This document shows, piece by piece, positions 2,705 to 37,405 of a stretch of DNA of 38,825 bases. How positions within the stretch are numbered: position 1 is the stretch's first letter; each line of letters starts with the position of its first letter. The notes beneath the pieces were generated by a model. The model saw only the letters and a list, made by a program, of their open reading frames with translations. It was not told the DNA's origin and searched no databases. The DNA comes from Saccoglossus kowalevskii (lineage: Eukaryota; Hemichordata; Enteropneusta; Harrimaniidae): positions 97,543 through 136,367 of the forward strand of contig NW_003146294.1 in NCBI RefSeq assembly GCF_000003605.2. The letters are read 5' to 3'. The position numbers were made by a program, and so were the translations under genes.

Positions 2705-5700
2705 ATGGCTATAATAGTACGATGCTGTTGCTGTAATGTGCGAACGGGGTCCATATGGGCTGCTTCTTATTCCTTGGTAAGTTTTCGTCTAGTGGAATGT
2801 TATGCTAAACAAAATTAGCGACGATCATGACATTAACTAATATTTATTATCGACAATAACTTCATTGTTGACAAACTTTATTTTTCAATGTAGAAACTTG
2901 TGTCTAACTGTCATGTTTATCTACCATATGAAATATACATTCAATGTATGTTTTTAAAATATACAGACTGTCATCTGTAACATACAGCGGTGGTGGGCTC
3001 CGTGTAGTAGTCAACAGTTCACGTCGCACACAATGTGAATCAAAACGCACCCACTATACAACATTTACGTTTCAAATCTAAATATCAAGAGGTCAATAAA
3101 TACAAATATGTTGTTTCTGTGTATCGTGATACAGTACGTGTTGTATTCATCGCAACACCTTATTTAAACTACTGGAATTTCTACACTATGAGTTCAACAA
3201 CAAAAAATGCCTCGCCCAGTGTTCTATTGTCACATGTACATATTTCGAAAATATGATCGCTGATCTCAAACATCAGCTGTCCCATAGATAGTTCAGGTCA
3301 TGGTGCCATAACGGTCAGATTAAAACAGAATAAATGTTTATTTAAATTGGGGTTCATTCAATCTATTGTCAGTAATCGGGTTTTCACTAGCATGACCTCT
3401 GGGACGTTTGTCTAGCGGCATTGAATCTGAGATAGCGGATCGTAAATTCAGGTATGAAGAGAATAATGAAAGGCGACACTACAATGGCTGATACACGTCG
3501 CACGCTCACCGCTCACCTTCCACTTCGGTACATGCTTTGTATCTCCCATGCCAATCGACTTAAAATAAAGAAATTTAAAAATAAACTGAATCTAATGAGT
3601 TATAACATTTCACATGCCGGTACGGCAAAACTAAACTTACGATATCATGCTTCGTTAAGATGGATATTACTTACGCCATTCTATTATAGTTAGTAATTTC
3701 ACTAACACGTTTTCATTGTATACATCTTAGATTACATCTCTTTTGAATGTCGGATTGTATGCGTATTTTACTGTCATCTACCAGAATATGGAATCAGGTA
3801 GGAAAATGTCAAACTTTTTATTATTTGTTTAATGTTTTGGGGGGAATTGTATTAGTTCGTATTTAAAAATAATGCTCGTTAAAGGTTCCCTTACCTAGTA
3901 CAATTGCGCATACACAGTTCACAATACGGTGGGTCATTCGTTTAAGGAACTGGTAGTATTTATGTTAGGACTCATAAAGCAACTTTTTAATTAAGTGAGA
4001 CCCAATTGTCTAATGTTGCTGTGAGACCGCTTCGTTGAATACCGTGCTTTCAATGCAGACACAGAAAGTTAAAATTGTTAACAACAAAGGCACGTGTTGA
4101 CTAAAGGAAATACATATGATTTTTGAAAAATGCTAATCTTTCCGGTAGTATTTTGATTTAGCCAGGTTATCGTGAGTGGGCCCGATGAGCCGTTCACATC
4201 ACAACTCCTTATGTTTGAAAAGGCTGAGTATAAACAGTCGTTCGTCATTTAAATAAAATGGAATGAAAATTTCAGCGTTTTGAATAAAAGCAGCGTTTTC
4301 AATCATGATGACGAAAGAATTACATCACTTCAAAACAGTGACGTTTCTTATTGCCTTCTTTTCACTCAACTATACTAAATCAGCGCTTTACCGATAAAGG
4401 GCACAATATATTGGAAATTGGCGTAGAATCCAATAAATGCAGATATACATTTATTTATTTATTTATTCATGAATTTGTTGACTGACGATTTGTTGTCACT
4501 GTTTTAGTAAGGAACAGGTTGGATGTTGTTGCTGTGTATTATACCGCAAGTGAAGGATAATTGTACATGAAATATTTTACATGACTATATTAAAATATCG
4601 CGACTTCATTTATGGCTGCTTGTTGCAGCGATGTAGTGATTAAGAATAAAACAAGTATCTTCTACAGGTACATTTGTTCACGTCGTGTGTGTGTTCTTGT
4701 ATTAATTTGTATTACGTAAATAATAAATAACATTTAATAAAATAAAAACAAAAGTAAAAACAAAACAAAACACAAGGTCATTTGAGGATATTTATCCATA
4801 AACAGATTTGTCATAAACTTAACTTTGAAAATGAGCAATTCTACCAGACCTGCAAAAGTCAAGAAGACCCCAAGTGGTCTCAGAAATAAAATAAGTGATT
4901 TCTAGTTTATATTTCTAACTGACAAAAGGAACATAAGGGGTCATCAACCTTGAATGATTTTATCTTATATAAATTTTCGTTGTATATAGAGTACTGTTAT
5001 ATAGTACAATAGTTTAAATAGTAATACCCTAATAATACCCTCCAGTGTCAATTGAGCACTCACTTAAATGGAATAGAATAATAATTAGATAAATCAGACA
5101 CCAAGAAATTAAAAACTCTTTATTGCGTGGCTAGCAATCTTGGTGGTGGTGGTAGTGGGGGGGGGGGGTACTTCAGATAAACCAGAAATGCATCTGAGAT
5201 ACATGTTGATTTAACAATTGGTGATAGATAGTAAATTTCGCATTTTCCAAGATGTAAGATCTTTTCTTGCTCAGTTACCGTCTAGCTATCGGAGTAGTAT
5301 CACTGTACTCCACTCTCATTGTGTTCACAGGTTATCTTCACATACCTTATATTGTGTTTCCGATAACCACGGGATGTAGTGGACTAGTCTTCATGTTGTC
5401 CATAGTTCTCATAATTGGTTTAATAATGGTAAGTCTTTTGGATTCACATGCAGCACAGATAGATGTATTTGCGTTCATTACATTACGCATCATATGGTTA
5501 TGTGCGATTCAAACCATACCATGTTCGGGCTTACAGTCATAGAAATGTATAATAAAAAATGCTGACAATATAAATTATTTATGATGAATTTCATACATGT
5601 CCATTCATATAATATTTTATACGTAAATATACATTCCCTGTACGAGGAACATTTCAACAAAGATTCTTTGTTGGGTGTCGTCTTGTTCAGCTCGACACTG

Positions 5701-7167
5701 GCAAACCATAGGCATAAGCATAAACTCAAGTCAAATATAACTCGTCACTTTTCCCAGAATAAACCTGGGTAATTTATTTCTATATTTAATTTTAATAACA
5801 AAGAATTTATAGAAATATTAGATCGCTCGCACTTCGAGCCAATAATATAATTAATGTGTATTATTGTATTCCTATAGGACCATAAGAAGTTATTGTTGCC
5901 GTGGATTATTTTCTATATTTTTTACATTCTCGCCGAAGGTGCTACATCATTTGTCTTGGTATTTTTCTTTGTAAGTATCGAATTCACTTCTATACAAATC
6001 GACACCACTGTACTATGACCCAGTCTATTTTGGCGACATAATACTGTTAAGTGAACCGGCATTGTTTTGCGACCCAGCATGGCTTCATGTCTCAGAATAA
6101 TCCAACTTTCATGAGAAAATTGTTCATAGATTTAGATTTTTGAAAACAACGTTTTTAGTTTATGACAAATAATTTAATGACATCAATAATTATTTGCGTA
6201 ATAATTGTCTTATTGTTTGTATTTAATTACTATAGGGTGCACACGCGATGAACCTGTTTGCCTTAGCGTGGTTTGTATCAAGAACAATACTTGGGGTAAG
6301 TGAATGATGATACCTGCATTTACCCTGCCCACAGTATGAGGGCGTTCTTTTACATCCGCGTATTGCTAAAATTATGTACACATTGTAACCTGCGATATTG
6401 TAAAGACGATGGTGTAATATAAAGAACGCTGATAATTTCGTGTAATCTTCTTGTTATATGCAATCTACATATTGACCTCTCCTAATAGGTGAATAAATAA
6501 TGGAAACATGTCCCTAATAAAGCGACAACCAATGACATATAGCGCAATTATAGGAGCACAAATATCAGCGCACCCCATCATAATGTACGGTCCATTCAGC
6601 ACAATGATGTTTTCACTTTACGTTTTACGCAGGTATATTGTATTATATGTGTGGTGTCACAATACCAAGAACTAAACGAAGGTCGTGGTAGAAGTTACGA
6701 TTACGAAAGGGTGAGATGGCTACTGTAATACTCTATGATGACCATAGTGTTTTTTCTACCACCATTTTCACCACTTTGGCGAAATATACAGGACAGAGTA
6801 CCGACACAGAGGTCAAATCATGTTGACAAATTTTGATTTCATGGTGAGGTTACATTTTATGAGTTATATCAAAATCAAGTTTATTTTTTTCGTATTTTAC
6901 TAGGATGCATATATGGACGATGATGCCGACGCGCCACCAGAAACAATCGAGTCGCCGCGGGTAATGAAGTTCACGATCCATGGGGATCAGACTCAAAGAC
7001 AGTACAGTACAGCATCTACCAAGTCAGCAGGTGATATCGAGTTAGAAGAGACTAGATCGTATTCAACGCCGAGAAGACATCCACGTTCACCGAAGATTGT
7101 ACCCCGAGAAGTGCAAACACCAAACAATGGTTACCAAAACAGATACTTCGAAGACGATGTCTTTTAA
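2705..7167 (+). CDS. Gene A: LAPTM/Mtp-like four-helix membrane protein, 7 exons, 243 aa
   Basis: Exons: 2705-2776, 3731-3797, 5331-5428, 5878-5970, 6236-6295, 6633-6710, 6904-7167. All introns are GT-AG, with phases 0,1,0,0,0,0; the exons sum to 732 nt, an open frame ending in TAA. Exon 1 encodes an N-terminal cysteine cluster, RCCCCNVRTGS (residues 6-16), close to the start I recall for LAPTM4 proteins. Helices: TM1 about 17-40, TM2 about 60-79, TM3 about 84-110, TM4 about 114-139. E99 lies in TM3 and R126 in TM4; YQEL (141-144) follows TM4. The 100-residue cytoplasmic tail is acidic, then Ser/Thr/Arg/Pro-rich (DDDADAPPETIESP near 161). Relatives act in endosome/lysosome or plasma membranes; role here is inferred only. 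The start was chosen because the frame upstream of the cysteine cluster opens with ATG at 2705 and the exon lines up with those of genes B-D. DUF4728-like tetraspans are the main alternative. Confidence 0.85.
2777..3730 (+). other. Gene A intron 1, with short ORFs and a possible SINE fragment
   Basis: Phase-0 intron with donor GTAAGT and acceptor CATCTTAG. It contains ORFs at 3035-3256 and 3454-3693 that show no recognisable domain. Apart from the tRNA-like stretch at 3401-3453 I see nothing in it. Confidence 0.7.
3401..3453 (+). repeat. Possible tRNA-derived SINE fragment
   Basis: TTTGTCTAGCGGCATTGAAT resembles a pol III A box, and GGATCGTAAATTCAGG, about 20 nt further on, looks like a decayed B box. 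No complete cloverleaf can be folded by eye, so this is at best a degenerate SINE piece in intron 1 of gene A. Confidence 0.3.
3798..5330 (+). other. Gene A intron 2
   Basis: Phase-1 intron, donor GTAGGA, acceptor TTCACAG. AT-rich, with an ATTT run near 4450 and a G-run at about 5157-5168. A second AG at 5274 lies in a longer open frame that extends upstream of exon 3, but only the AG at 5329-5330 restores the same phase and the same 98-nt exon length as genes B and C. Confidence 0.7.
5429..5877 (+). other. Gene A intron 3
   Basis: Phase-0 intron, donor GTAAGT, acceptor CCTATAG. Overlapping short ORFs on both strands (5490-5772) have no recognisable motif and are crossed by the splice model, so I treat them as chance frames. 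Confidence 0.7.
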
Positions 7168-7407
7168 TTACAGGGAGATGTTCTATTCTATTCAAGTATG
7201 TTCTCGTCATGTTAACGTTAACGTTCGTCAAGTTTCATTTATTGGTTTATCAATGATTGCGATAAATCTTCCAGTTTTACTCCATTAAGTTGTTTTTATT
7301 CCGACACATAAATTATTATTATAGCACCAAAGAACACATTGGACAAAATGAATTGTAATACAAAGACACTATTATTTACACTGAGTTAGCTGTCAATAGA
7401 TGGATTT

Positions 7408-8010
7408 TGTTGTTGACACAGGATGCTTTGTTGTCACAGGATGCTTTGTTGTCACAGGATGGTTTGTTGTCATTGGTAGGGTTTGTTTTCATTAACCATT
7501 GCTTGGGTTTGGTTGCCAATGAGTGGTTTGTCGTCATTGGACGGCTTGTGTTGTGATTGGGTAATTTGCTGCTATTAAGTGGTTTTTATTGTCACTTTTC
7601 GCATTTGAACGGTTTGTTGTCATTAAATGAGTTTTGATATCACCGAGTGAGTTGTTGTCATCAGTAGAGTTTGTTGTCATTAGATGGGTTATGTTAATTG
7701 GATGTTTTTTTGTTATCACTGGATGATTTTTTGTCATTAGATGGGGTTTGTTGTCATTAGATAGTTTGTCGTCATTAAGGGGGGTCGTTTTCATTGGATG
7801 GTTTGTTGTCATTAGATGAGTTTTGTTTTTTCTAAATGGCTCGTTGTCATTTGATGGGTTTTGTTCTTATTTTATGATTTGCTGTCATTAGAAAGATTCG
7901 TTGTCATTAGATGGGTTTTTGTTGTCATTATATGGGTCTTGTTGTCATTAGATACATTTTGTTGTCACTAGATGCTTTGTTGTCATTGAGTGCTTTGTTG
8001 ACAGTAAATG
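7408..8010. repeat. Degenerate minisatellite, units of about 17-20 bp
   Basis: About 30 imperfect copies of a unit like TTTGTTGTCATTAGATGGG. The first copies read TTTGTTGTCACAGGATG and are almost identical; later ones vary in length and sequence. The minus-strand frame at 7534-7812, rich in Thr, Asn and His, is simply this repeat read in one frame. The array begins about 240 nt after the gene A stop codon. Confidence 0.9.
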
Positions 8011-11050: not shown

Positions 11051-14000
11051 ATGCCGCTAATCACCAGGTGTCTATGTTGGGACGATCTGCGAAGCGGTGC
11101 CCAGGCAACAGCTATATATACAGTGGTGAGTATTGGCGTCTAATCTCACAGTTGTACTTGTTGTTGTTGTCATAAATTACCGGATAATTATGGCAGAACA
11201 GCTGTGATTTCGATTGAGTATTATACCTACCACTGAAGAAAGATATACTAAATTAACGTGTGAATAGCATCTAAGTGAAGTTTAATTGTTAGTGCCAACG
11301 ACAAAAGATCGTGTTAATTTTAACAAAATAGTTTAGAACGTAACGGGATGTTTTAAACACAGGACGAATATTTATAATACAGATATGGGGGTCATTGTGG
11401 GTCATTTCATCAGGTGGTTGTGGTACACAATGGCCGTAAAAACGCTCGGTGTGTACAACACTTTGGCACACCTTGACGAATTATTGCATATTACAATTCA
11501 CCTACAATGACGAGTACAATGCCACGCCATTGACATATGATAGCCATTACAGTGGTAGGCTGGGTAAAAAGCTAACACGCTGTCAGTTGTGTGGGACGTG
11601 TACATACCGCGTACTTTTTTTCAATGTCTATTTTTAAACTAGTGACCTAGCAGTGTTTTATTTATTTTTTTCAATTTTGTCAATATGATTACTAGTCTTT
11701 CTGAACTGCGCGTTGGGGTGATTGTGTACATATGACATACGCACTCCAACGTACGCAACAACATAAGATTACCACCCCTTACGTTTACTGTCAGATATAA
11801 AAGTGGTCATCGACCATGTGAAAAGTTCCGGAATGTTCTGTCATAATGGTCTTGTCAGGGATGTATTGCATTGACAAATCCATAGCGGCATGAGCAACTG
11901 CGTTTTTATGCAATATACTTGCTCTAAGTCAAAGAATACGAACCAATACGGGATGCCTGTCACATTTTCAGCAAATCGTCATTGCCCTAAGTGTTGTCCA
12001 AAAATTTACATTCACAACAAATCTGCCATATTGCCAATATTATACAGTGACCTTGCTCTGGACATAGAGGTCGCTCAAACAATTGGACCCAAGTTAAAAC
12101 GCGTCCGATATACAGTGACATCACACTAGAACAATCACAAGGTACCCGACACATTGTTGTCTACACGTTAACGTAACCATACAGTATAATGCGTGGAATG
12201 CTTTGTTCTACTAGCCAGTGTCATAACAAATGTTGAAATGGCATTATTTTGTTGTTGTTTTTCTCAGTGAAAATGCAGAAAATGAATAAAATTACTCGCA
12301 AAGTCACGATTCTTATTGGAAACGAAAGCAAGGTCGTCGACGTTACAATACATAAAAACACGTTTAATGTAACGTAGACACTATTAATCAACAATTCATA
12401 TATTCATATTCACTCTAAATAAATCGCGTATTTGACATGAGTAGCCTATAACGATCAGTAATTTACAATGCACTCCACATAATCACAGTCACTGTAGTCG
12501 TCACCGCGTGGTAACTTGATAACAACGCTATAACCACCATATTATACGTGTGTTTTTTATTTGTAGGTATTCTCTCTGATTGGCATCTTCATATTTATTT
12601 ACTATCTGAGTTTCTATGGCAGTAAAATGGAAGATGATTGTAAGTAACGTCAACAATAATATGGCTATTTAAAGACTATCCGTCAAAGCAATGTCATCAA
12701 CATTGTCAGCTGACCACAAATTCAATCAATCGTATTTATTTGGTTTTAGTTATAAAGAGCAAGAAACGATGGACATTACCGGTATATTTTAGTTCATTTA
12801 CTTAAATGTGTGTTTGGTCAATGAAATTCATTCTAACGTCCTAAATTTCAATCCTATATTATCATTTCAAAAGATTATCTTACGATTTCCAATTGACAAC
12901 ATTTTTAGTTCTAGATATTAGATATATGCTGTGGCAACGTAATTTGAAATGAATATTTGAAGTAAAAGTTATTTAGCGAACCTAAACATCAACAAAAATG
13001 TCTCTGTGCATTTCTTTTATTTGGGATTGACATCCCCAGTTAGTTATACAAAGCAAACAAACAGTATTTCTCAAGATATGATTGATACACACTAAAATAT
13101 AATAAATTTACTGCTAGTTATAATCACCACACAATGGTAATTGTTGAATATATGGGGAAATAAAAATGATGATTTGTAAACCCAAACGTTTTTTAAATGT
13201 TGATCACGTCTCCTAAAAAACAATTATAGCATTCTTGATATACAAATTATTTTGTCTGACATTATAACTATTGTGTGTATATATTACAGCCACGGCAGCC
13301 ATAATATATAAGCTGTGGTTTGTCATGGTGTTTGTTTACGCTCTAGTGTTCATTGTGGCGGTCATTCTCATGGTTGGTGTACAAAACGTAAGTATGTTGT
13401 AATACTATTGTAGAGTTTTGCATGGTTTCATAATTTAATACATCGGAATCACACTCTTCCCTCATTGTAATTCTAGATTCTAACACGCTAGCTTCTCATA
13501 CAAATGTGCCACGGCATAATTTACCTAAACCGAGCAGTCTGCGTATCTCTTTCCAAACCATACTTGATTTTGGCCAAAATAAAACTTAAGTTGTAGGTCA
13601 ATTAAAGGTTGACCAATATCTGGATTTGAAGATGATACCATATTTGTGAACTAGATTCTCTTGTTTATCGGGATCAATGTGTTGCTACTGTATTTTGCTA
13701 CATATTATGTTTAAGATTTGTTTAATTTTCTCTGTAGATTTGTTTTCCTTTTTAACCGAAGCTACCATTTACTAGAGTTTGTAATTTGATTTGGCGCTTT
13801 CATCGGTCCATGGCTAGATTATTTTTTTTCTTATTTTTTTTTAGAAATAATTAAACTACCAAAATATCACGAACATTGAGATTATGAAAATGTTGCATCT
13901 GTTATGAATTTATTTAAATTCACTTCATGTCATTAACAATGATGACGTCATTGGGTGGGTAGTAACTGTTTTGCATATTGCTGCATACTTTGCAGGATCA

Positions 14001-14692
14001 GAAGAATTTACTGTTACCTTATCTATTTTACATGGTATTTTACATGTTTGCTGACGCTGGTGTCAATGCATACGTTTATATTGTAGGGGTAAGTTACACA
14101 GACCGTATTCACAATATCATTCTGGCATTTTCCATTGCCCATGATAGGCAGCCAAATAAATAAGAACCTATGGAATTGTGTGACCATTCAATGTAATTTC
14201 AAATCGTTTTTGTATTCACCTTTTCACTTTGTCGACCCTTTACTACTCGTTACTTTATCAGCTGTATAAGTCAGTTTTTCCATGGTCGTGTTGTCACCCC
14301 CCCCCCCCCATTAACTTGAATCGTACCATCCTATCCAGTAACATGAAGCCCCGGTATACGTGGATGATAGTGTGATAGATGAGATAAATGCCAAGTCCTT
14401 GGGATCACATGCAATATTCAATATTTCCAAGCAGATATAACTAATTAACCGTCACAGAGAAAAACGACTATCATCGTGGAGAACTTTGATAATGTTATGA
14501 TTTTTTGTTTTTGTTTTTGAATTCCTAACCAAATGAACACATTCATTCAGTTACATCCGGGATTTGTTGTCCTGTGTAACGTATATACGTAAATCATCAG
14601 TAAAGTATGTACTATGGTTAAATTATGAAAATATGAATAAAATAAGTATATATAAATATAAATTTTTAAACAAAATTAATAAAACATAATAA

Positions 14693-14752
<60 letters not shown>

Positions 14753-17700
14753 TTATTATGTTTTATTAATTTTGTTTAAAAACAATAGTATATGATTTAT
14801 CCTAAGAATTGTTGGCAGTGAACATAGCAGTTTTGTTTGATGCAATAACCACAACGCTAGTGCGCATGCTCGTCGAATTCCACATTTCATATTATTGTAC
14901 TCTTTACATTAGCAAAAGTCAAAACAACAACATCCCTTATAAAACAAAAACTATAAAATTTCAAAAAGCACCCTACACATACCTCGGAGATTATCAAATC
15001 CTGGAATTAACAGAGTGACATAATAATTTATCGAAGAAATTATTTAATGATTTCACACATTGTTGAAATGTCAGCCTAGGTCGTACATATTAACTACATG
15101 TGCCACTATGGACTAACCTGTTTACTTCATAAAATGTAATCCAGAGTGGCTATTAATCCAGGATTTGTCTGTTAATCCTACATGACGCTTTCTATTTTTA
15201 TGAGTTCCCTTTAACCTTGTCGATCGTTTACACTGTTATATTTATGCAAATGAATGTACAACTCAAATGTGTCTATCGTTGTTGTTTTATGTCATTTTAG
15301 GGATCAACCAGTATCAATGTGTTCAATCTTTCATTATGTGTTGTACGTGAAGCAATAACAGTAAGTACGCTGTCATCATGACAACAACAATAGAATGGTT
15401 CTAAGATACAGCATACTAGAACAGAATCCGGTACAATAGAATAGTTGCGATTGACATGATTTCATATACAACGTAGTATAATATATTTGTGTGTGGGGGG
15501 GGGGGGGTGTGTAGCGTACGTGATGGATGTACCACAACATCTTTTGGTTGTAATTATCACTATGAAATGTATGCATTATGCAAATATCAAATATAATAAA
15601 CTATTCTAATGTGTTTATTTCTAGTTCTGGTGTGAATTGTGTATCTTTTCATTATATCAACTATTAATATCAGCAGAGAATGCGAGAGCGGTGAGTCACG
15701 TGACTTATGCAGTACACACTTTTTTAATGTGTCTATGTTCACCTTGTCTGTGTCGCTAAAACGACGTTGGGCATTTCTTCCATTCGTATACATGCCTTTT
15801 CCCCCACTTTTCTTTTTCTAAAACCGCCTCTGTTTTATCAACAGAAAGATGCAATGTCTCGCGAATGTCAGGTTTCGACGATCACCCTCAACGACAAACT
15901 TTGTGTATCTCCAGAAAAATTACCTGACACCGGTCAGAGGGGGCGCTCGTACAATCAACAGAAAAATTGCAAGTTCAATTCGGGGCCAAACCAAAACGAC
16001 GTGTTTGATGAATTATTCCGCCCGAGAAGTGCATTATCTGCCCGTGATGTTCGACTGTTGTCAACCCCAACGCCGTCTCCATCATTGCAGTTTGACTTTG
16101 GCTCTACGGGGTCGATGAGAAGCGGTGTCGAGGGTCAAGAACAACTCGAGCCTCCCGTAACACCTGACACAAAATCTCGTCGAAAATATGATATTGGTCA
16201 GTCGGCGAGAAACTCAAAACAGGTGAATGTTGAAGTTCACCAAGGACATTACAGGGTATGATGAAAGTCGATTCAATTACATAAACAAATTATTTTCATA
16301 TATATATTTTTTGTTAAAAATCAAACAAATTTTTCGAAACTTCTACTTCGATTTAAAACGCCACAGTGCGTCCACATTCATTTACATATGTTACATGGGA
16401 CTCACCAATGAATACGATGCATTGTATTCGTTACATGGTTACGTGGGACTCACCAATGAATACGATGCATTGTATTCGTTACATGGTTACATGGGACTCA
16501 CCAATGAATACGATGCATTGTGTTCGTTACATGGTTACATGGGACTCACCAATGAATACGATGCATTGTATTCGTTACATTGTGACAAGGGATTAACCAG
16601 TGAATATGCTGCGGTGTACACGTTACATGGAACTCACCAATGAATACGTTGCGTTGTATAAGTTACATGCTTACATGGGACTCACCAATGAATACGATGC
16701 ATTGTATTCGTTACATGGTTACATGGGACTCACCAATGAATACGATGCATTGTATTCGTTACATTGTTAAAAGGGATTCACCAATGAATATGCTGCGGTG
16801 TACACGTTACATGGAACTCACCAATGAATACGTTGCGTTGTATACGTTACATACTTACATGAGACTCACCAATGAATACGATACATTGTATTCGTTACAT
16901 GGTTACATGGGACTCATCAATGAATACAATGCATTGTATTCGTTACATGGTTACATGGGACTCCCACCAATGAATATAATGCGTTGTATACGTTACATGG
17001 GACTCACCAATGAATATGATGCGTTGTATACGTTACATGGGACTCACCAATGAATACGATGCGTTGTATACGTTACATGGGACTCACCAATGAATACGAT
17101 GCGTTGTATACGTTACATGGGACTCACCAATGAATACGATGCGTTGTATACGTTACATGGGACTCACCAATGATTACGATGCGTTGTATACGTTACATGG
17201 GACTCACCAATGAATATGATGCGTTGTGTACGTTACATGGGACTCACCAATTAATACGACGTGTTGTATACGTTACATGGGACTCACCAATGAATACGAT
17301 GCATTGTATACGTTACATGGGACTCAACAGTGAATACGATGCGTTGTATACGTTACATGGGACTCACCAATGAATACGATGCGTTGTATACGTTACATGG
17401 GACTCACAAGTGAATACGATGCTTTGTATACGTTACATGGGACTCACCAATGAATATGATGCGTTGTATACGTTACATGGGACTCACCAATGAATATGAT
17501 GCGTTGTATACGTTACATGGGACTCACCAATGAATATGATGCGTTGTATACGTTACATGGGACTCACCAATGAATATGATGCGTTGTATACGTTACATGG
17601 GACTCACCAATGAATATGATGCGTTGTATACGTTACATGGGACTCACCAATGAATAGATGCGTTGTATACGTTACATGGGACTCACCAATGAATATGATG

Positions 17701-25200: not shown

Positions 25201-28200
25201 GCCATGTCACGTGATTAACTGCGACTTTTAAATATAAGCGTATAATATGCACATTGTAAATGCTATCAAACAACAAATATTTAGGAAGTTAAAATCACGA
25301 TAGCCGCAATCACCACTGATGTAATGTTCTAAGGTGGCAATATTTCGCTCATCAGGTCTAATCGAAAAAAAAACACAATCAAGTTAGAGAAATGTGAACA
25401 TGGCGAGTCAAACAAACCAAAGGAAACAATATAAAATAAAGGGGATACAAGAAATAAAATTACATGTTAAAGGGAACTAGTAAGAAAACAATGGCACAAA
25501 TTGAAATAATAGATGGAAATAGTAACGAGATTCGAATGGCGGGAAAGGCCATGGTGTTATATAATGACAAAAACAGATAGGGTGAGTGGCATGTAAACAT
25601 CATTCCAGGGTCAATGGACACGTCAGCTGGGTAGAAGAGATTTAATTATATTGATCATTGAAAATTATTTTAATATACGCACTTTGGTATCTAGGGAATT
25701 AGTGTCAAAACCCAACACGTTGAAGCAATGAATGGTTTGGTCGGTGGGGGGGGGTTGAAATGATGGGAAACTAGGGTGTTTTGGTTGCGCGTAATTAATG
25801 GTAGAGTACGAGAATTTTTAATATAATGGTTGTTAACCAACATATTGGAGTGCACGCAAGGTGTATTTGATAAGGTAAATCACGTTAGTTGTGGCGCGGA
25901 AGATGTGGGTACTAATATACTAATTTTCGTAATATTAATATAGTCAATCGCACCTCGTAGCCGCGATGTTTCAATTTTAACGTAAAATGTGGTTGTCACA
26001 CTTGAAACAGCACGGCCACGAGGTGTGATTAACGTTTTATACCACGACAATCCGACGAAAGCGCAAAATAAATGCAAACACTGCTCCACCTATTGCTGTC
26101 ATTGGAAAGAACATATACATAGGCACAAAACGCTTTGTCACGTGATGAAGAATGTATTGTAGAACCGCTACTTTCCTATTGTACTCATTAACAGTACGAA
26201 AGTTATGAAATCGTCTTGGAAAACTTGTTAATAAAAAAAGAAAAAAACTGTCATTCACATTTGAAATTTCAAACCCAGGGACACAATCTCAATTACAGCA
26301 GGTGGATGCACTACCTCCATGTGACGACTAAGCTATTGCGATTTCTGATGGAGTTCAAGGTCAAATGATATGCTGTGGATTATTCATGAGATAAGATGAA
26401 AACGCGTGCAATTCATTTTTTGTAGTTATGTTAATTACTATACGTTCACTGGTAATATCAGCGATTGCTGAATTTTATCGTTTTTATTTGTGTTATAATT
26501 GAGAAATTATTTTAAAACTCAGTGTACCATTATATCCGATAACACAGCCGGAACGACGGGTCACATGACCAAAAGTGGAATGACTAGGATGGCGTTGTGT
26601 GAAGTGTTTCCTGGTTCAGTAGTAATACCACTAGGTAGTAGCGATATAGCATTGAACTAGGTAGTTGGCAATTATCCCAGGGCATATGCCCAGCTTTTCC
26701 AACTCAATCGTTACCGGTACTGAAACGATGGCGTAGTTTATTCCAAACCAATTATAGTAAATGTAATTTCACGACAATTTTGTTGTCTAATACTTGTATA
26801 TAATAATACATACACATAATATACATTCTAATATTCAGCATACTAGTATTGTTTTTGTTTTCAGTGTTTATCGACAAACCTGTTGCTGCTATATTTATTT
26901 AAATTTTCAACGTACATTCCTGCGCACGACGAAGACCGTAAGTAGACTGATATGTCAACGTAATATGACAGTTGTACATTACTCGAGATAATATCTACTC
27001 AAGACGAATGAATCATGGGATACAGAGTGGTGTCACGTATCAATTGGCTGTCAACAGTGACGTCACTGTATTCATATTTTGAAAATCTAGCATGACATAT
27101 CAATATTAAAAATGATGAAAGTTTACTCAGACCTTTAAAACAATTTTTCCAGCTTTTTGTTTTCTTATTTTGCAGCTTTTATGGTGGTTGTTTACAAAGC
27201 TTGGTTTCTCCTGCTCCTTATTTACGCTCTGTATTTCATCACTTCGTTTATATTGCTCAATGGAATCGAAAAGGTATGTGCTAGAGCAGGGGCAGAGTAT
27301 TATGGCATTTTATTAAAATAATTACCCAGGACAAGGTAATGTAAGATGTAATTATAATATATATTCTAAACAGGAAAATATGGGATGTAATTATAATATA
27401 TGTTTTGCGTATCGTGTTTAATTTTTTATATATTGTTATTTTTCAGGCTTTCGTTGGAATGGTATTATTTTTTCTCACTTTCCTCGTCGCAGCCGAAATA
27501 ATAGAAACAGGAATTATAGTTTTATTGCTAGTAGAAGGAGTAAGTGTCTCATTTATACTTAGTTACATAGAGTTAGTCTAGTCTAGTCTAGTCTAGTTCT
27601 AGTCTAGTTCTAGTCTAGTTCTAGTCTAGTCTAGTCTAGTCTAGTCTAGTCTAGTCTAGTCTAGTCTAGTCTAGTCTAGTCTAGTCTAGTCTAGTCTAGT
27701 CTAATCACGATATATCATTTTTTTTGCAGGGATTCACGTCTACAATTCATGTAGAATTCTCACTTTATATTGTAAAGTTAGTGCCCAATGTAAGTACCTG
27801 TATGTTTGGTTCTTGCACAACTTATACATAGTTATGTATTTAGACAAATAAATAGACAATAGACAAATAGACAAATGTCAATGTGTTTAAAAACCATATA
27901 CATATATATTCTAGATTCTGATATTCGTCGTCGTGTTATCGTGCTATCAGGCGCTAAAAGAACAAAAAAGGAACGAAAAAAACTATGATGATCTTGTTAG
28001 AAAGGTATGTTACTATAGATAGATTCATATTGGAAATATGTCGCTCCACTGAATTTGTTATTGATTGTTAAAGCGTGGTGGTCGTCGCGCAGCGCGTGTT
28101 CGAATTTCATGCAAATAAACAATGTATTTTACACGCGTTCTATACGTCGCTATGAGTCCCATATCGAACAGAACGCGGTACGACAACTGCCGCCCTTCAA

Positions 28201-30425
28201 CATTAAAATCTGTTAAAAACAAACATATGAACCGTAGCGATTTAAATCTTCATTTGAATACAACCGTAACGATTTAAATCTGAATACAAATACAACCGTG
28301 ACGATTTAAATCTGAATACAAATACAACCGTGGCGATTTAAATCTGCATTTGAATACAGACGTAGCGATTGAAATCTGCATTTGAATACAACCATAGCGA
28401 TTCATATCTGCATTTGAATACAGATGTAGCGATTTAAATCTGCATTTGAATACAGATGTAGCGATTTAAATCTGCATTTGAATATAACCGTAACGATATA
28501 AACCTAAATACAAATACAACCATAGCGATTCAAATCTGCATTTGAATACAACCATAGCGATTCAAATCTGCATTTGAATACAACCATAGCGATTTAAATC
28601 TGCATTTGAATATAACCGTAACGATTTAAATCTGAATACAATTACAACAATGGCGATTTAAATCTGCATTTGAATACAACCATAGCGATTCAAATCTGCA
28701 TTTGAATACAACCATAGCGATTTAAATCTGCATTTGAATATAACCGTAACGATTTAAATCTGAATACAATTACAATAATGGCGATTTAAATCTGCATTTG
28801 AATACAGACGTAGCGATTTAAATCTGCATTTGCATACAGACGTGGTGATTTAAATCTGCATATGAATACAGACGTAGCAATTTAAATTTGCATATGAATA
28901 AGGACGTTGCGATTTAAATCTGCACTTGAATACAACCGCAGCGAGTTAAATCAGTATTTGAATACAACAATAGCGATTTAAATCTGCATTTGAATACAAC
29001 TGTAGCGATTTAAATCTGCACTAAAATTACAGCCGTAGCGATTTAAATCTGCTTACGAATACAACCGTCGCGATTTAAATCCGCATTTGAATACAACCGC
29101 AACGATTTAAATCTGTATTTGAATACAACTATAGCGATTTAAATCTGTATTTGAATACAACCATAGCGATTTAAATCTTCATTTGAATACAACCTTGACG
29201 ATTCAAATCTGCACTAAAATTACAGCCGTAGCGATTTAAATCTGCATTTGAATTCCTACTGTAGCGATTTGAATCTGCATATAAATACAGACGTAGCAAT
29301 TTAAATCTGCATGTGAATACAGAAGTAGCAATTTGAATCTACATTTCAATACAACTGTAGCGATTTAAATCAGCATTTGAATACAACTGTAGCGATTTAA
29401 ATCTGCATTTGAATACAGACATAGCAATTTAAATCTGCATAGTCTGCGGAAATAAACAGAGAGTCACAGGAGTGATATATATACCAATATTGGCATAATC
29501 AAATAATCAATTGAATAAGTAATTCAAATCTCATCATTACCCACTTATTCACAACAAGTAATCATACTTATTCAGAGAGTACTGAAGTACAGTCTCATCA
29601 TCACAGTCCCTTCATCACAGAATGATAGAAGCACTGTGACGTAGGAAATGGAGCGTTCATCCCCGACACTCGTAACCCTATGAATATATTTGGGACTGTT
29701 GGGACAGCGGGTTTCCTGTAAACTCATGGGTTCTAATAATAATACTATTTCTGGCATGTTTATTCAGTATGTGTATTCTTCTCTTATTATTTCGATGTAA
29801 CGTCTATGGTCTGCCTTTTTTTCATTTGCAATCCATTTTCTTTTGCATAACGACTGTCATCTGCTCTACTGACGTCACCGAAATATGCTAATCCTAACTT
29901 ACTTATGGTGTTTAAGCGTGACTGTTCTGTGATGACTTGACTGAGCATATACTGGTTAGTTTTCTTTGCTGCCCAAGAAATTCGCATAAGTCCCAAAAGA
30001 GTTGGATTCATGTATCTATGTCAGATGATAAAACAGCAATATTAATCTTAGCTTGAATTATTTATTTTTAAAGACAAACCACTATTTGAGTTCGGCGAAA
30101 GTTATAAATTGCGCCATATAAATGGTTGTAGGAATGAAACAACGAACATACTTACTCTTCTTTACGTGGATCACATCGAAGACACTTATCGCAAAGTAAC
30201 ACGTCTAATCATAACAACAACGCGCTGACTCTTCTCTGTTTCCTATAGGGCCTGATCGTACCCGGCAGTCCGATGCCAAGTGCAGTTGACCGTGATGACG
30301 AAGGTGGATTTGATGAAATTTACCAACCTAGACCGAGTACTAGCGGTAATAACAACAATGCCAACCTGTCACAGCTAGATAGCGCAAGTGCGTATATTGA
30401 CAGTGGGGGCGCTAGAGCAGTGTAA
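22289..30425 (+). CDS. Gene C: LAPTM/Mtp-like four-helix membrane protein, 7 exons, 221 aa
   Basis: Exons: 22289-22363, 26865-26937, 27176-27273, 27447-27539, 27730-27789, 27915-28004, 30249-30425. Phases 0,1,0,0,0,0; the exons sum to 666 nt with a clean TAA. The first 10 residues, MPLITKCMCW, match gene B except at two positions. TM1 about 19-42, TM2 about 53-77, TM3 about 84-112, TM4 about 120-142. Acidic E102 (and E99) lie in TM3 and K129 in TM4; YQAL (144-147) closes TM4, and a second tyrosine motif, YDDL (157-160), lies in the tail, where endosomal sorting signals of the YxxPhi type are usually found. The 58-residue last exon is Ser/Asn/Asp-rich and lacks hydrophobic segments. Intron 1 is 4.5 kb and intron 6 2.2 kb, both swollen by tandem repeats. 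Endomembrane or plasma-membrane location is inferred from family and motifs. Confidence 0.87.
22364..23540 (+). other. Gene C intron 1, 5' part
   Basis: Starts at donor GTGAGT. Opposite-strand ORFs at 22191-22505 and 22502-22714 are unrecognisable and overlap exon 1. Otherwise AT-rich with no coding signal up to the 50-bp array. Confidence 0.6.
23404..23452 (+). repeat. Possible tRNA-derived SINE head
   Basis: GGGTACAGTGGTTAGCGCAT followed by TCGACTCGCATCTAGAG closely resembles the D arm and anticodon arm of a tRNA gene (A-box-like TGGTTAGCGC; anticodon-loop-like ACTCGCAT). The acceptor stem and a clear B box are missing, so this is a tRNA-like fragment and not a functional tRNA gene. It sits just before the 50-bp array in intron 1 of gene C. 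Confidence 0.4.
23541..24488. repeat. 50-bp tandem satellite, 19 copies
   Basis: The first unit is 48 bp, then 18 units of exactly 50 bp: AGAATATATTAATCCACCGA, TACTATTGTTTTGTATTGCT, ATTTGAACAC. Most copies differ by zero to three bases. The array lies in intron 1 of gene C. Confidence 0.98.
24489..26864 (+). other. Gene C intron 1, 3' part
   Basis: No coding exon found. ORFs at 25017-25205 and 25880-26258, all on -, lack recognisable domains. A G-run is at about 25746-25753. The intron ends at TTTTCAG. Confidence 0.5.
26263..26335 (-). repeat. tRNA-derived SINE head, antisense
   Basis: Read on the minus strand: GGAGGTAGTGCATCCACCTG (A-box and anticodon-arm-like), then TAATTGAGATTGTGTCCC and GGGTTTGAAATTTC, a decayed B box. 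Spacing of the two boxes fits a tRNA-derived pol III promoter. The tail of such an element would extend to lower coordinates, where A-rich and T-rich sequence occurs (26231-26247). Confidence 0.45.
27574..27703. repeat. (TCTAG)n pentanucleotide microsatellite
   Basis: About 25 copies of TCTAG, with a few TCTAGT hexamer interruptions near 27595-27620. It fills most of intron 4 of gene C and ends 26 nt before the exon 5 acceptor. Confidence 0.98.
28225..29442. repeat. 32-bp minisatellite, about 38 copies
   Basis: The unit is GCGATTTAAATCTGCATTTG followed by AATACAACCGTA, with variants CAGACGTA and CAACCATA in the last part. Most copies keep the palindromic GATTTAAATC core. Divergence between neighbours is higher than in the 50-bp array. 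It lies in intron 6 of gene C. Confidence 0.96.
29787..30011 (-). pseudogene. Antisense remnant of a non-LTR retrotransposon (LINE) ORF2 C terminus
   Basis: The minus-strand frame contains RISWAAKKTNQYMLSQV and, further on, LGLAYFGDVSRAD. This matches the pattern RI.W..K.TN..VL..I......L.....K..L.YFGH..R that I know from the region after the reverse transcriptase domain of many animal LINE-type ORF2 proteins. Only about 75 codons survive, without the catalytic domains, so this is a dead fragment. It lies inside intron 6 of gene C, opposite to the gene. Identification is from memory of the motif. Confidence 0.6.
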
Positions 30426-30655: not shown

Positions 30656-31747
30656 TATTTTTATTATTAATATTTTAATATGTTATCATATATTGAAATT
30701 ATATATAGTATTTAAATATACAATTAAGGTCGTAGTTGTCGCTTTATATTTGTATAATATCTATAAGTAGGATAAGAGGGATGGTTACTGAAAAAATACT
30801 GGGAAACTGCAATTCTGTATTGTGTTTTTAAAGTTTAAAAAGTATGGGTACTTCCATTTATTATTTAAACATTATTTACAACATTATTTTGTTATATTCG
30901 GGATAGCAGCAATATATAGCTGTTATTGTTCGGAATTATTCTCGTATTGTCCATATTTTACAATAAAAACAGGAAATGCAACTTTGTATTGTTTTATGTC
31001 ACGTGTCTTATTCCCCTAATATTTAGGTTTGATTCAACTTTGTGTCTCTGTACGGAAAATATATGTAAATAAGATGGTAAGTTCAATGGGTATTTTTAGC
31101 GGTGATTCTGATTTTAAATAAAAATGTTAACTGATTTGTAACTCACTGAAAAAATACTACATCCACCAAAATTCGATTCTCTGCATAATATTGTAAATTA
31201 TGTCATGGAAAACACAATATAATCATAGGTCATAGGTCATAGGTCGTTATTTAGGTATATGTATGTGTAACTGGAACTAAATTATGCAGCATATTATTCT
31301 CAATATTTATTTGTTGCCAATAATTCTAATTACTGTCGTTTTAACAACAGTTCAAGGCAGAGAACGTTTGTACATAATTATGTCGTGGTAGTAAAAACAA
31401 AACATCGTGGCGCTGTTCTGTGATTTGGGTTTTATACACACAATACGTATAATAGGATAGCTTGGGCAGACTAGAGCCGTGGATAGATTTCAACCAGTAG
31501 AAGACGTACTGTGTTCAAGTTTGTAAAGGTGCACACAATGAAATTGTTGCATATTCATTTACACGCTCTGTACACCTGCAGAATGCGCTTAGCACAGTGA
31601 GTGGAGTTTGGGCATGCGTAGAACGCACCTGCATCGCCAGTGAAAGTAGACGCCTAGTCGGTGACTAACTTTGGGCGAGGTCAGCTTTTATCCGTGCCAT
31701 TTGTTGTTACTTTCCGATGTTATAAGTGATATCAACAACCTTACAAC
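30656..31747. other. Spacer between genes C and D, presumed promoter of D
   Basis: Mostly AT-rich; a CATAGGT heptamer is repeated three times at about 31226-31245. From about 31550 the sequence becomes less AT-rich up to the gene D start codon, as also seen before gene B. The ORF at 30822-31019 (+) is unrecognisable. Confidence 0.45.
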
Positions 31748-34700
31748 ATGCCGTTGATGTATAGCTGTGGGTGCTGCAGCCTTAAGGCCGGCAACATGGT
31801 GTGTTGTATATTAATACTGGTAAGTGTGAGGACAATGGTACGGGGTTTATGTGGTGATCGATATATCCCATTTACGGTCCTTAACGCCGTGACTGGGTAG
31901 CCATTGCACTGCCCTTATATTCACTGCGAGTGATAGTAGTACACATGTCATTAATGTATTGTTATAATTTCACGCCAAGGCATTGTACTAATTGTGTACA
32001 TGTATATGTTATGCCATCGAACTGTCGACACGACAGTACAACAATAAAATCGACCTCAATTATAAAAAGGTGGTATTTATAAGTACCGCTTGCCTGTCTG
32101 TTTGTTGGCTTACTACCACGTGATGTCGTCGGATCTGCGACATATAGCACCATATACATTCACTGACTTGTTACTTAGCTGAACGATTGCCACGTCACCT
32201 TTACTGTATGTGATATATTCGTCGGTATACGGCTTCTGGTATTACGCAATGTGAGGAGGGTGCGGTTTTCATTCGTAGGGTTCCACCCATCGAGGGTTTA
32301 TTTTACGACAAAACCGAATCATAAAATAATCACCGTCATTCCATCTTCATAAAATAACCTATTTCTGCAATTTGTTCAAATTATTGGTTCAATTTTGGAG
32401 GTAAATAATCTTCACGGGAGAAGTGTATCCCAAGCCATACAAATACCTTAGCGCCATTTTGAATAATTAACACCTGTTAACAATATAGGAGAATTCTATT
32501 CAGCATAATAGAGGTCAACAGATCGCACAACATGGAGGCCCAAATAATGATCAATGTGTAAATAAACAAACAAAAGTATAGTCTTATTTGAGGCGCATCG
32601 AGAAGATTTTCGGACAAATTATTATACCCAGCCGTACTAATTTTAATAATTACCTGTACGCTTTCATTCAGTGAGTTTAACTTAAGGTAGCGAGAAGGGA
32701 AATTTTCACTTTTTTCTTGATTTTTCAAAAATTGATAAAACGGTTACTTTAGACCTTGATACATCACCCCAGGTTTACAAAAGATCGAAATTGCGAAATA
32801 ACGTTGCTCAAATTAGTGTTTTAAAACACTAGCAGAAAAGACTACAACTGCCGTTTCGTGGATATTTGCATAGTGTTTATCTTTGGAAGGAATTAAATGA
32901 TAAAATCTTATCTGTATATTCTGTTGTTGACGATTCTGATATAACGGGTGATAAGCTTCCAGTTGCAAACAATGCGTGTTTATCTAACGTCCATTGTCAG
33001 CATTATTGTCAGTCGAGACTTCGTCGGAGAAACATGCTCATACAGTACTCATTTCGCCCAACCTTCCGCTTTTACATCGACCGCTTATCGCTTAATTTCC
33101 GACCACGCGGTCTTGTCCGACCGGAAACCGACCGCATTTTAATCGCGTTTTTTTTCGCTCGCTGGCTCATTGAAAACATTGACCGCTCGCCCAAACACTT
33201 AAAACTGGCACATGGGTGGTCGAAATGGTGGTTTTGATAGTAAAGTGTTAACATACAACTAGTATTAACTATTATTACATTATGCACTCATGTTTGCTTT
33301 GTTGGGGATCTTACTAACTTTCTAACTACTGATTAATAATATTTCATTGTTGCATACGGTAAGCACGATTCACAGGGAATTGTAATCAAATATCTAAATA
33401 TGACTGTTACTTTGGCAACGTAGATTAAGGACATTTCAGGTCAGATTTAAGCTAGCTATTGCTTTCGAAGCTTTCATGTTTGACAATTGTCATTTATATC
33501 ATATTATGTAAATGAGTGCGATTAGTCGTATGTTGCCAGGATACGCAGCCATTTATATAATTAGGGACGCTATGAACTAGCAACACACGCCTGCCATTCC
33601 GTACGATTTTGATTTTTTGGCGCTTCTATTGTAGCAAATATCAGTCGGAGCGGAGGACATTTATTTATTTTCGTAATATGGCGGCGAGGTTCAAGTTCGA
33701 TCATTTATAAAATAAAATACGAGACAAAATAATACATAGTTTGACCGACTATGTTTTCAGAGGTTTGGATAGTGATTGGGCTCACACCCCCCCCCCTCAG
33801 AAATTCAGAAAGTGTCAATGACGAACATGTAGCCTCAATAATCGTTCAAAAGACCACACAACATGGCAGCCCATGTTAATAAATTAAAAGCAAACTATCC
33901 GTACCTGTCAAACACAAGACATACAACAATGTCAATAATGTAGTTACACGCCCGATTAACACTCAGTTACTTAATAGTTACTTCACAATTTAATTTATTG
34001 AAAATAGAATAATAGCTGATAAACACTAATTTGTTTCAGATTGAAATGGTGATTAATTTGGTGATCTACGTCTACGGAGTGCTACAACTTCTCATGGAGA
34101 AGCCAAATCTCGATGAAGAACTGTACATCGGTGAGTTGTGTATCCCTCTACGTCAACTAACATACGTTACATTTGTTCATGTACGAACACTTGTGGTAAA
34201 TTATAAGGAAAATTATACGTATTGCGACTTGCCCGTAATGAAAGACAGAACTCAACAATTACTAAATCTTCTCTGAACAAATGTAGTAAATACTATGTTA
34301 TTACTCTCAATTATATGTATTCGGGTTACACTACATTGTCATGATACTCATCAAAACTATTCACACAAGGCCTTTGTAACGCAGAAAATATGACACCAGG
34401 CAGATATGAAGTCACCATGCGTTCTTTTAATTTCCAATATGAGCAACTATGAAAGTTAACACGACTGAAACCCTAACCAGTACAATTCAGTGACGCCCTA
34501 TATGATTACATAGTTTCTTTTTACACGGAAACACACCGAAAGTGAATTCATAAACGTGGAAAGTAGATGGGGAAGTACTGCACGGGTTGTCGTCCCTCAG
34601 TGGTTTCAAAGCGATGTTCACGCCGCAAATCTCAGTGACCAACTGACTGGATGTCAAGTTGAACACCACTGCGCATGCGCGAAGTAAATTACAAGGCTAA

Positions 34701-35884
34701 TTAGAATGTGAATACATTTGACCTGTCACACCTTCATAACTCTATTACATTACGCTGAATACCACGTGTTTGCTTACAGGAATGGAAGTCGCATACTACG
34801 TGTTGATTGGTCTATTTGTTATCGTCATGGTTATGACTAGTATATATTTCTGTGGGGCAGTCAAGGTAGGTTGTGTTTTAATATTATTCGTAATAAATGT
34901 ACCACTGTCATGCTAGTATCATCATTGCCACACCCTCGTCCCGGCCCGGTAATGTGTTTTGAATACTGTGAGATAGTTCGAACTATCACCTAAATCTACT
35001 TTTTCCGTCTTCTAATGTCCCTTTATTTAGAAGTGCCATCTTCTGGCCATATGTATACTGTTGGGTAAAGAAAGTATCGTTTTACCAAATATATTTTATA
35101 CAATTTTATTAAACACATCGTTTCATTATTACGTCATATTATAGCTACTATCTATATAAATGTGTATTATACTGAATGTATTGTGTTTATGTAATCACAG
35201 GGGCATCCTGGTTTGTTGGTTGGTTGGATCGTAACTCTAGTAATATACATGGTATTAGAATTAGCCGCCACAGTGTATCTAACTTATATCTATCACAACT
35301 TTCTTGGTGTAAGTAGAACAGCTTCAATTATTTATTGTTTGTATGTATGCACTGTTTCTGTCACTTGTCAATTCATGTAGTCCTTGCTTGACTAAATGCT
35401 TCATCAAGTAAATCATGTACATAGTGTTCTGTTGCTGACTTCATTTTGAACCCCATTTTTATTTAGTTAGCGATTCAGAAACGTATCACGAAACATTTCT
35501 ATTTGTTAAAATCTACACAAGTCATGATTACGATTCGTATTGTTAGTTTGTGTCCACGATGTAAAAGCTAGTTTGTGGGAGTTCTCCAAATTGTTTTATT
35601 ATTTTGTAGATTTATTTTTCCACACACTGCAAATGCGAGGCAATTTAGTGTTGAAAACGTACATTTTTATACGCATACTGCTCGTGCTCTTATTTCTTGC
35701 TTACTTTTTTGTTTTCCAGGGGTTGGAGAATAATATTTTCGCCCTCTCGTTATTAATATGGTATATACTTCGGACATTACTTCATGTAAGTAAACAGTCA
35801 ACGATTATACGATCTGATCCGACCCACCCCGACCAGCGCGATTAAATTGAATACAATCCGATTAGTGCAATGTCGGTTAAGCAA

Positions 35885-35941
<57 letters not shown>

Positions 35942-37100
35942 TTCTTTTTATTTAGATCATGGCAATTTTTTGGTCAGAGCGCCCTCTAGTTTTGTGGAGA
36001 ATCATGTTCATTTGGAATGCTCTGATTGGATGGAAGTTCAAGCCTAGCAAGGTGTGATAGAATTGGCCTGTTATGTTCAGATTCAAATAAGCATGAACCA
36101 CTAATTTGACAGGGAAGTGATACTTATAATGCAGCAAGCTGTTCTAATTGCTGTTGTGGTAGAGTTTTTCTATTTTCCTGTCAAATGCATTTATTGGTCC
36201 ACTGAAAAATGAAAATAATGTTCCCTGTAACTTAGACTCTTATTGATCAAGGCATTTTAAAAATCATGGGTGTTAACTCCCCTCAAGTTATGACCCGTTG
36301 TCCCCTACAGAATAATGGTTGCATCTAATATTAAAATAAAGATGGCGGAGTATAGCGTTGATTCATCTCGTTCTACTCTGGATTACTTGGAGTCAATAAA
36401 GATCCTAGAAAGTTAGTATTTATATGCCTGTGTGTTTTTTTTTTCACTGTCTTTGACTTTCCCAGTATGTTTGTTGCTGTTGACAACAATTCAGTCCTCT
36501 GCCAGGCTTCAGTCAATGTTTTTCTTCACTACCTACCCAACTCCTCGTCGGGCACTATGTAGCTGGTGTGGTATATTTATCACAGACAGTAGGGCAATTG
36601 TCACATTTAGTGCTCCAAGAAAATATTCTCTGTCCATGTGTATTTATATAAATAAATGCAGTTTCTTTGGCTTGAATAACGATCACTGGCTTCGTACATA
36701 CAGGTATACTGGTTTACCTGTTTCTAGTTGAAATATAGCCAATCTTATTAACCAAGACAGTTGGACATTTGCCACATGTCACAACACTCATTTCCAAGTG
36801 CCATAGCTTGAAACAAGTAGTCAAATCTGATATTGGCTGGAGCTTTAGTTTATATGGACATGGTAAATGGCAAACTAGATGGTCAGAAAGTAATAAAAAT
36901 AATCACAGCTTTACTCCACCCACCCCACTATGAAGTAAAAGGCTGTTTATAAGGCCATGTATGATGGTTTCATTTTTCTTATGGAAAACAATTTTAATTA
37001 AAAACTTCTATGCTCCTGTACCCAACCGTGGGGGTTCATCACACTAAACAACAGGTGTCACTATTACTAAGATAAATGTACTTTTTTTTCATTAAAATTA

Positions 37101-37188
<88 letters not shown>

Positions 37189-37405
37189 TATCGATACAAT
37201 TAATATGCATAATTCTGATAACGCCGTAGCAGTTAACATGAATATATAAATTATATTCCACATACTTATATTTTATACGTTTTTGTTGTCTGTATAGATG
37301 CTCTATCTTATGAGTGCAGTTTCACAATACCAAGAAATTACAGAAAAACAGAAGAAAATACATCGGCACAGGATGCTGCAAGATTCCGAAGAACACGGAG
37401 TTTGA
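31748..37405 (+). CDS. Gene D: short, divergent LAPTM/Mtp-like four-helix membrane protein, 6 exons, 176 aa
   Basis: Exons: 31748-31819, 34040-34130, 34780-34865, 35201-35308, 35720-35785, 37298-37405. Phases 0,1,0,0,0, as in genes A-C; the exons sum to 531 nt and end in TGA. The N terminus MPLMYSCGCCSLKAGN keeps the MPL start of B and C and the cysteine cluster. TM1 about 17-44, TM2 about 57-80, TM3 about 88-115, TM4 about 124-149. E103 is in TM3 and R137 in TM4; SQYQEI (150-155) matches SQYQEL of gene A. The separate tail exon of A-C is absent: the protein stops about 20 residues after YQEI with a His/Lys/Arg-rich end. Exon lengths differ from A-C (exon 3 86, exon 4 108, exon 5 66 nt), so D is the most divergent copy. 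No CpG or promoter element could be assigned. Confidence 0.87.
31820..34039 (+). other. Gene D intron 1
   Basis: Phase-0 intron, donor GTAAGT, acceptor TTTCAG. A GC-richer patch at about 32950-33230 carries open frames in two + phases and one - phase (123, 64 and 71 codons); none has a domain I recognise. It may be an eroded mobile element. The C-run at about 33787-33797 is a simple repeat. Confidence 0.5.
34131..34779 (+). other. Gene D intron 2
   Basis: Phase-1 intron, donor GTGAGT, acceptor GCTTACAG. Exon 2's frame runs on to 34276 but that extension is intronic in this model. The minus ORF at 34487-34669 is unrecognised. Confidence 0.65.
35888..35938. repeat. (TA)n microsatellite
   Basis: About 25 uninterrupted TA dinucleotides in intron 5 of gene D. 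Confidence 0.98.
35939..37103. mobile_element. Possible non-autonomous element between two (TA)n tracts
   Basis: A 1165-bp segment lies between TA tracts. Its left end reads TATATATCAGTTCTTTTTA; the reverse complement of the right end reads TATATATCAGTAATTTTAA. Beyond the TA bases only TCAGT is shared, so inverted termini are weakly supported. Frames at 35957-36056 and 36432-36731 encode no recognisable transposase. A non-autonomous DNA element inserted in a TA repeat is one reading; two independent microsatellites is the other. Confidence 0.25.
37104..37185. repeat. (TA)n microsatellite
   Basis: About 40 TA dinucleotides, about 110 nt before the last exon of gene D. Confidence 0.98.

Follow-up and report, generated by a model that had tools for sequence, protein, structure and literature searches.

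The window analysed here, the whole stretch of 38,825 bases (C3696:97543-136367 of the Saccoglossus kowalevskii assembly, which comprises 572 Mb in 4830 contigs, the contig C3696 having 185,257 bases), carries four spliced genes on the same strand, designated A, B, C, and D, which were rebuilt from splice sites and checked by script (Table 1). The original prediction of four genes in one orientation spanning 2705 to 37405 was reproduced by this rebuild from the letters, with the same start and end. All 23 introns of the models, which contain 27 exons in total, are of the GT-AG type, and neither inner stops nor frame breaks are present. The first five introns have the phases 0,1,0,0,0 in each of the four genes, as had been proposed, and a sixth intron, of phase 0 in each case, occurs in A, B, and C only. 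Exons 3, 4, and 5 of A, B, and C have exactly the predicted lengths of 98, 93, and 60 nt, as compared with 86, 108, and 66 nt in D. The earlier description of the exons as being of 60-110 nt holds for exons 1-6, but not for the last exons of A, B, and C. By subtraction, the coding parts are separated by 3,883 (A-B), 6,027 (B-C), and 1,322 (C-D) bases. The gene models that had been put forward are right and useful.

Table 1. Exons of genes A-D (window coordinates) and of copies E, F, and G found outside the window (contig coordinates where given)
Feature	Position	Strand	Length (nt)	Description	Basis
Gene A	2705..7167	+		7 exons, 243 aa	
A exon 1	2705..2776	+	72	N-terminal Cys-rich MAIIVRCCCCNVRTG..., TM1 start	ATG, donor GTAAGT
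A exon 2	3731..3797	+	67		splice sites/phase
A exon 3	5331..5428	+	98	TM2	splice sites/phase
A exon 4	5878..5970	+	93	TM3, PW motif	splice sites/phase, motif
A exon 5	6236..6295	+	60		splice sites/phase
A exon 6	6633..6710	+	78	TM4 end, VVSQYQ	splice sites/phase, motif
A exon 7	6904..7167	+	264	tail, stop	splice sites/phase
Gene B	11051..16261	+		7 exons, 293 aa	
B exon 1	11051..11125	+	75		C exon 1 match, 2e-11
B exon 2	12567..12639	+	73		splice sites/phase
B exon 3	13290..13387	+	98		C exon 3 match, 4e-7
B exon 4	13996..14088	+	93	PY replaces PW	A exon 4 match, 2e-4
B exon 5	15301..15360	+	60		splice sites/phase
B exon 6	15625..15690	+	66	IFSLYQ	splice sites/phase, motif
B exon 7	15845..16261	+	417	long tail, stop	splice sites/phase
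Gene C	22289..30425	+		7 exons, 221 aa	
C exon 1	22289..22363	+	75		B exon 1 match, 2e-11
C exon 2	26865..26937	+	73		splice sites/phase
C exon 3	27176..27273	+	98		splice sites/phase
C exon 4	27447..27539	+	93		splice sites/phase
C exon 5	27730..27789	+	60		splice sites/phase
C exon 6	27915..28004	+	90	VLSCYQ	splice sites/phase, motif
C exon 7	30249..30425	+	177	tail, stop; least certain	acceptor pyrimidine count
Gene D	31748..37405	+		6 exons, 176 aa	
D exon 1	31748..31819	+	72		splice sites
D exon 2	34040..34130	+	91		splice sites/phase
D exon 3	34780..34865	+	86		same length in copies E, F, G
D exon 4	35201..35308	+	108	GW replaces PW	splice sites/phase, motif
D exon 5	35720..35785	+	66		splice sites/phase
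D exon 6	37298..37405	+	108	AVSQYQ, short tail, stop	splice sites/phase, motif
E exon 3	C3696:65056-65141	same as A	86		by eye with splice sites
E exon 4	C3696:65322-65414	same as A	93	LPWIISIL	by eye; fragment E 1.5
E exon 5	C3696:65690-65749	same as A	60		by eye with splice sites
E exon 6	C3696:67009-67086	same as A	78	VLSHYQ	profile search E 0.001
F exon 1	C2342	-	75	MALLRQCCCWNNVRSGSLASGIYTL	four-gene profile E 8e-8
F exon 3	C2342	-	86		profile E 0.0025
G exon 1	C2676		72	MAILSNCCCCSLQSGTLVAAVYTL	profile search
G exon 3	C2676		86	up to GTAAGT donor	profile E 1e-3
G exon 4	C2676		93	VPWIISIL	profile E 5e-5
G exon 5	C2676		60		profile E only 0.17

Exon 7 of gene C is the least certain exon of the models, because its acceptor was selected, for the highest pyrimidine count, among 31 listed candidates; the string FDEIYQPR of this exon resembles FDELFRPR of B by eye, the relevant tblastn match being weak (E 8.8). 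The tail of gene B lies inside a 177-aa open frame that is visible in the list of open reading frames of the window, and a possible alternative exon of D was noticed by eye near 35957. Three of the four proteins end with valine (YRV, RAV, and HGV), and it may be speculated that these termini act as PDZ-type ends.

The G+C content of the window is 32-40% in 2-kb steps. Minisatellites are numerous, and long arrays of them are located between and inside the genes, at 10-1289 (unit of 70 nt), 16294-17947 (40/48 nt), 23444-24643 (50 nt), and 28134-29524 (32 nt). Intron 4 of gene B contains a perfect palindrome (14663-14782), whose 60-nt arms flank a TA run and which is possibly a small mobile element. 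Six open frames besides the genes were scanned against Pfam, and none had a family match over the cut-off, including a 154-aa frame (stop to stop) at 19186-19650; the frame 16227-16640 gave a sub-threshold match to Cytochrom_B561 (18 bits vs. 23). No RNA family reached its gathering score in the window. Downstream of the array, in the regions C3696:150079-156594 and 171721-172086 (L005, L006, L014), pieces resembling retroelements or LINEs and an exon resembling that of an ABC transporter were recognized by eye.

The similarity among A, B, and C is apparent already at the level of unspliced fragments. When 1529 stop-to-stop fragments from the two strands were compared all against all, at a stage at which no exon had been fixed and with rows touching tandem repeats excluded, the best pairs were the first exons of B and C (2e-11) and their third exons (4e-7), followed by the fourth exons of A and B (2.0e-4). 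Next to the latter stood two overlapping frames on opposite strands near 9.9 kb (2.2e-4), which probably reflect an inverted repeat at that place. BLASTP comparisons of the spliced proteins, in a search space of four, gave E values of 2e-20 for A-B, 4e-24 for B-C, 7e-15 for A-D, and 6e-6 for B-D, the weak pairs being A-C (2.4 in one direction and 0.005 in the reverse) and C-D (0.06-0.08). Since all these proteins are hydrophobic, residues in the control were shuffled separately inside and outside hydrophobic segments, with 1000 shuffles per pair. The observed score was reached by none of the 1000 shuffles for A-B, A-C, A-D, B-C, and B-D, and by one for C-D. Similar shuffles with the fragment of a further copy, E (see below), whose exons were chosen by the analyst, gave 0/1000 for A-E, B-E, and C-E, and 14/1000 for D-E. 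The predicted proteins A-D resemble one another, by this measure, beyond what common hydrophobicity yields.

Leave-one-out profiles were run against 1852 fragments of the window, with rows on exons of the other genes excluded and with reversed sequences as controls. Held-out exons of A, B, and C ranked first (E of 0.001, 4e-6, and 1.5e-5, against best reversed controls of 0.31, 0.28, and 0.18, respectively). Exon 4 of D also ranked first, but weakly (E 0.1 vs. 0.52 for the reversed control). D is, on these scores, the weakest member, whose placement is supported mainly by whole-protein similarity to A and by the exon plan. The proposal of tandem paralogous genes for putative four-helix membrane proteins with one exon plan is supported.

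The array continues upstream of the window, beyond the stretch covered by the original prediction. The genome was queried with proteins A and B as well as with two Pfam families, and these searches were followed up with a four-gene and a five-row profile. Copy E, represented by exons 3-6, lies on the same contig and strand as A, 33 kb upstream of it; it was first noticed via exon 6, its exons 3-5 being chosen by eye. An apparent GC donor (GCAAGT) follows its exon 4 at C3696:65415-65420 (L013). The contig reads N at 1-62258, 73785-97542, 136368-143775, and 157394-160589, and therefore additional copies may exist. Copy F was found as exons 1 and 3, and copy G as exons 1, 3, 4, and 5; they may adjoin the array, lie at separate loci, or represent other haplotypes. 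Exons 4 and 5 were seen in six copies, five of which (A, B, C, E, and G, not D) have lengths of 93 and 60 nt for them, respectively; copies A-C have an exon 3 of 98 nt, and copies D-G one of 86 nt.

Among the places matched by the four-gene profile, L024 (E 8e-8) was kept, as were L047 and L044 (which coincides with L024) among those matched by the five-row profile. Place L023 was dropped, as its match (E 0.003) covers 82 residues within a single uninterrupted frame, contrary to the exon plan. Also dropped were L030 (E 0.04), L027 (0.06), and weaker places of the four-gene profile, which did not list L025 and L028, L046 (E 0.015) and L045 of the five-row profile, which did not list L043, the C2342 matches at E 0.43 and 0.47, and the matches of L048 outside exons 1, 3, 4, and 5 (best E 0.026).

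The cysteine-rich start of the proteins had been taken as a sign of either LAPTM/Mtp-like or DUF4728-like tetraspans. The latter assignment holds for A, which scores 32.4 bits against the DUF4728 profile (PF15860, cut-off 26.7) over residues 65-144, but not for B (24.4), D (15.9), and C (9.8), the E fragment scoring 21.9. A search of the whole genome with DUF4728 gave no place over the cut-off, the split genes being matched exon by exon, and six places below it (L025-L030). The Tetraspanin profile (PF00335, cut-off 32.1) matched D at 23.7 bits (E 4e-5), B at 18.3, and A at 6.8, C not being listed; the score of D is thus higher for Tetraspanin than for DUF4728, with neither over its cut-off. 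Other sub-threshold matches are those to DUF7027 (B 23.3 and A 16.9, cut-off 27) and DUF4271 (A 21.8 bits, E 2e-4, cut-off 29.7). The Pfam scan listed no claudin model for A-D. The only match of the five-row profile in PDB was CD9 (E 1.5), which was set aside as a solved-structure relative.

By hydropathy, A, B, and D each have four hydrophobic segments, and C has five candidates. In this layout, exons 1-2 encode the Cys-rich start and TM1, exon 3 TM2, exon 4 TM3, exons 5-6 a short loop and TM4, and exon 7 the tail, which in D is short and encoded in exon 6. DUF4728 and Pasiflora may represent one family, and A fits both the profile of the former and the motifs of the latter. A better characterised relative, which was not named in the original prediction, is Pasiflora1, and A is a clear relative of it, as judged from its motifs. 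According to a Drosophila study (Deligiannaki et al. 2015, PMC4582180), Pasiflora1 (CG7713, 169 aa) and Pasiflora2 (CG8121, 258 aa) belong to a fly family of nine members, and orthologues of Pasiflora1 are present in arthropods, molluscs, echinoderms, and hemichordates. Pasiflora1 is characterised by four membrane helices, cytosolic ends, and the absence of a signal peptide. Two motifs are given as conserved, PW where TM3 begins and VxSQYQ where TM4 ends at the cytosol, and diverged fly members still have PW of TM3 in common (PMC4582180). Both motifs occur in A, with PW at residue 87 and VVSQYQ at residue 137. PW of TM3 is replaced by PY in B and GW in D and has no counterpart in C, but is found in E and G. 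The full VxSQYQ is absent from B, C, and D (Table 1), the pattern xxSxYQ being common to all four proteins, which also retain an N-terminal CxC. Because of the missing PW, we regard B, C, and D as diverged paralogues of A and not as Pasiflora proper.

We consider it likely that the array arose as the Pasiflora/DUF4728 family expanded in tandem in this lineage, with a role in septate junctions as suggested by the fly proteins. This reading builds on the gene structures observed, on the mutual homology of their products, on the family of A, and on the exon lengths that match in other copies where seen. For A, it is supported by the score over the DUF4728 cut-off and by the presence of both Pasiflora1 motifs. 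We infer topology, membrane, junction role, and expression by analogy. In flies, Pasiflora1 and Pasiflora2 are located at septate junctions, are required for barrier function, and have been proposed to assemble, together with claudins, into ribbons in cis; barrier defects are reported for fly mutants (PMC4582180). By this analogy, each gene of the array would encode a small protein that crosses the membrane four times, has both termini in the cytosol, and carries a Cys-rich start and a variable cytosolic tail. The lateral plasma membrane of epithelial cells, and perhaps also that of glia, would be the place of residence. There, these proteins would pack beside claudin-like and adhesion proteins into septate-junction ribbons and so seal the path between cells, A being the counterpart of Pasiflora1 and B, C, and D its diverged partners with different tails. 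A-D are probably structural parts of septate junctions, the role in ribbons being proposed more confidently for A than for B, C, and D.

Several features count against the expansion reading, namely that B, C, and D score below the DUF4728 cut-off and have neither PW nor the full VxSQYQ, as well as the Tetraspanin match of D, the DUF4271 match of A, the five segments of C, the weak similarity of D to E, and the genome search with DUF4728, in which no place scored high enough. Some of them would also be expected if A were a true Pasiflora1 and B, C, and D had moved to other membrane tasks, in which case the cluster would not be one functional unit. Apart from the two motifs and the Tetraspanin match, such a division of functions is favoured by the differing tail lengths and by the fly family itself, the study showing no junction role for the seven members beyond Pasiflora1 and Pasiflora2 (PMC4582180). 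The retention of the exon plan, the N-terminal CxC, and xxSxYQ argues against it, and we hold this alternative to be a serious possibility, albeit a tentative one. An extension of the expansion reading, in which the array serves as a claudin-like toolkit whose diverged loops and tails are used per tissue, giving tissue-specific make-up and perhaps permeability of septate junctions, seems unlikely; evidence for such specificity in invertebrates is absent according to the 2015 study (PMC4582180).

The assignment of the proteins to the LAPTM/Mtp type, i.e., to four-helix proteins of endolysosomes or the Golgi with a function in sorting or carrying small molecules, appears quite improbable. The Cys-rich start of A is followed by RTG, which resembles LAPTM4, and residues 63-94 of A give a weak match to Mtp (PF03821; 8.8 bits, E 1.5). 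However, this score is below the cut-off of 25.2 bits, the E fragment scores 7.8, no match of B, C, or D is listed at E up to 10 in the Pfam scan, and DUF4728 together with the Pasiflora1 motifs is a better fit for A; membership in this family was rejected on the profile score, and this half of the earlier assignment is not supported. A search of the whole genome with Mtp gave no match, and the control genomes were likewise silent. The presence of pseudogenes or prediction artefacts among the copies is very improbable: the models come from genomic sequence, D is weak at the exon level, and the last exon of C was selected among candidates, but the intact frames, GT-AG introns, similarity above that of shuffled sequences, and equal exon lengths in copies E, F, and G all argue otherwise.

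As judged from the profiles and motifs, the array represents the local growth of a family that is already known, although little studied, and not a new kind of gene. Pasiflora proteins were studied in flies in the literature that we found, and we found no description of a tandem array or of non-arthropod Pasiflora copies in the open-licence literature, judged mostly by titles. The array suggests that the Pasiflora family can grow through tandem duplication. With at least five diverged copies on the same strand, one of them with the Pasiflora1 motifs, it may serve as a test bed for the parts of the protein that are relevant to septate junctions. Genes composed of such short exons could easily be fused or missed by automatic annotation.

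When compared with known systems, the proteins share with LAPTM, presumably, the predicted four helices and the Cys-rich N-terminus, but differ from it in falling short of the Mtp profile. Claudins and tetraspanins are similar in the four-helix layout, and D, B, and A have Tetraspanin matches; the difference is that these matches are under the cut-off and that no claudin model is listed. The likeness to DUF4728 is over the curated cut-off in A, but below it in B, C, D, and the E fragment. With Pasiflora1 and Pasiflora2, the proteins share small size (176-293 aa here), hydrophobic segments consistent with four helices in A, B, and D, the occurrence of several diverged paralogues and, in A, both PW and VxSQYQ. 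They differ in that B, C, and D are devoid of PW, that at least five copies form one same-strand array here, and that D has a shorter tail than A, B, and C. The junction role is known from the fly.
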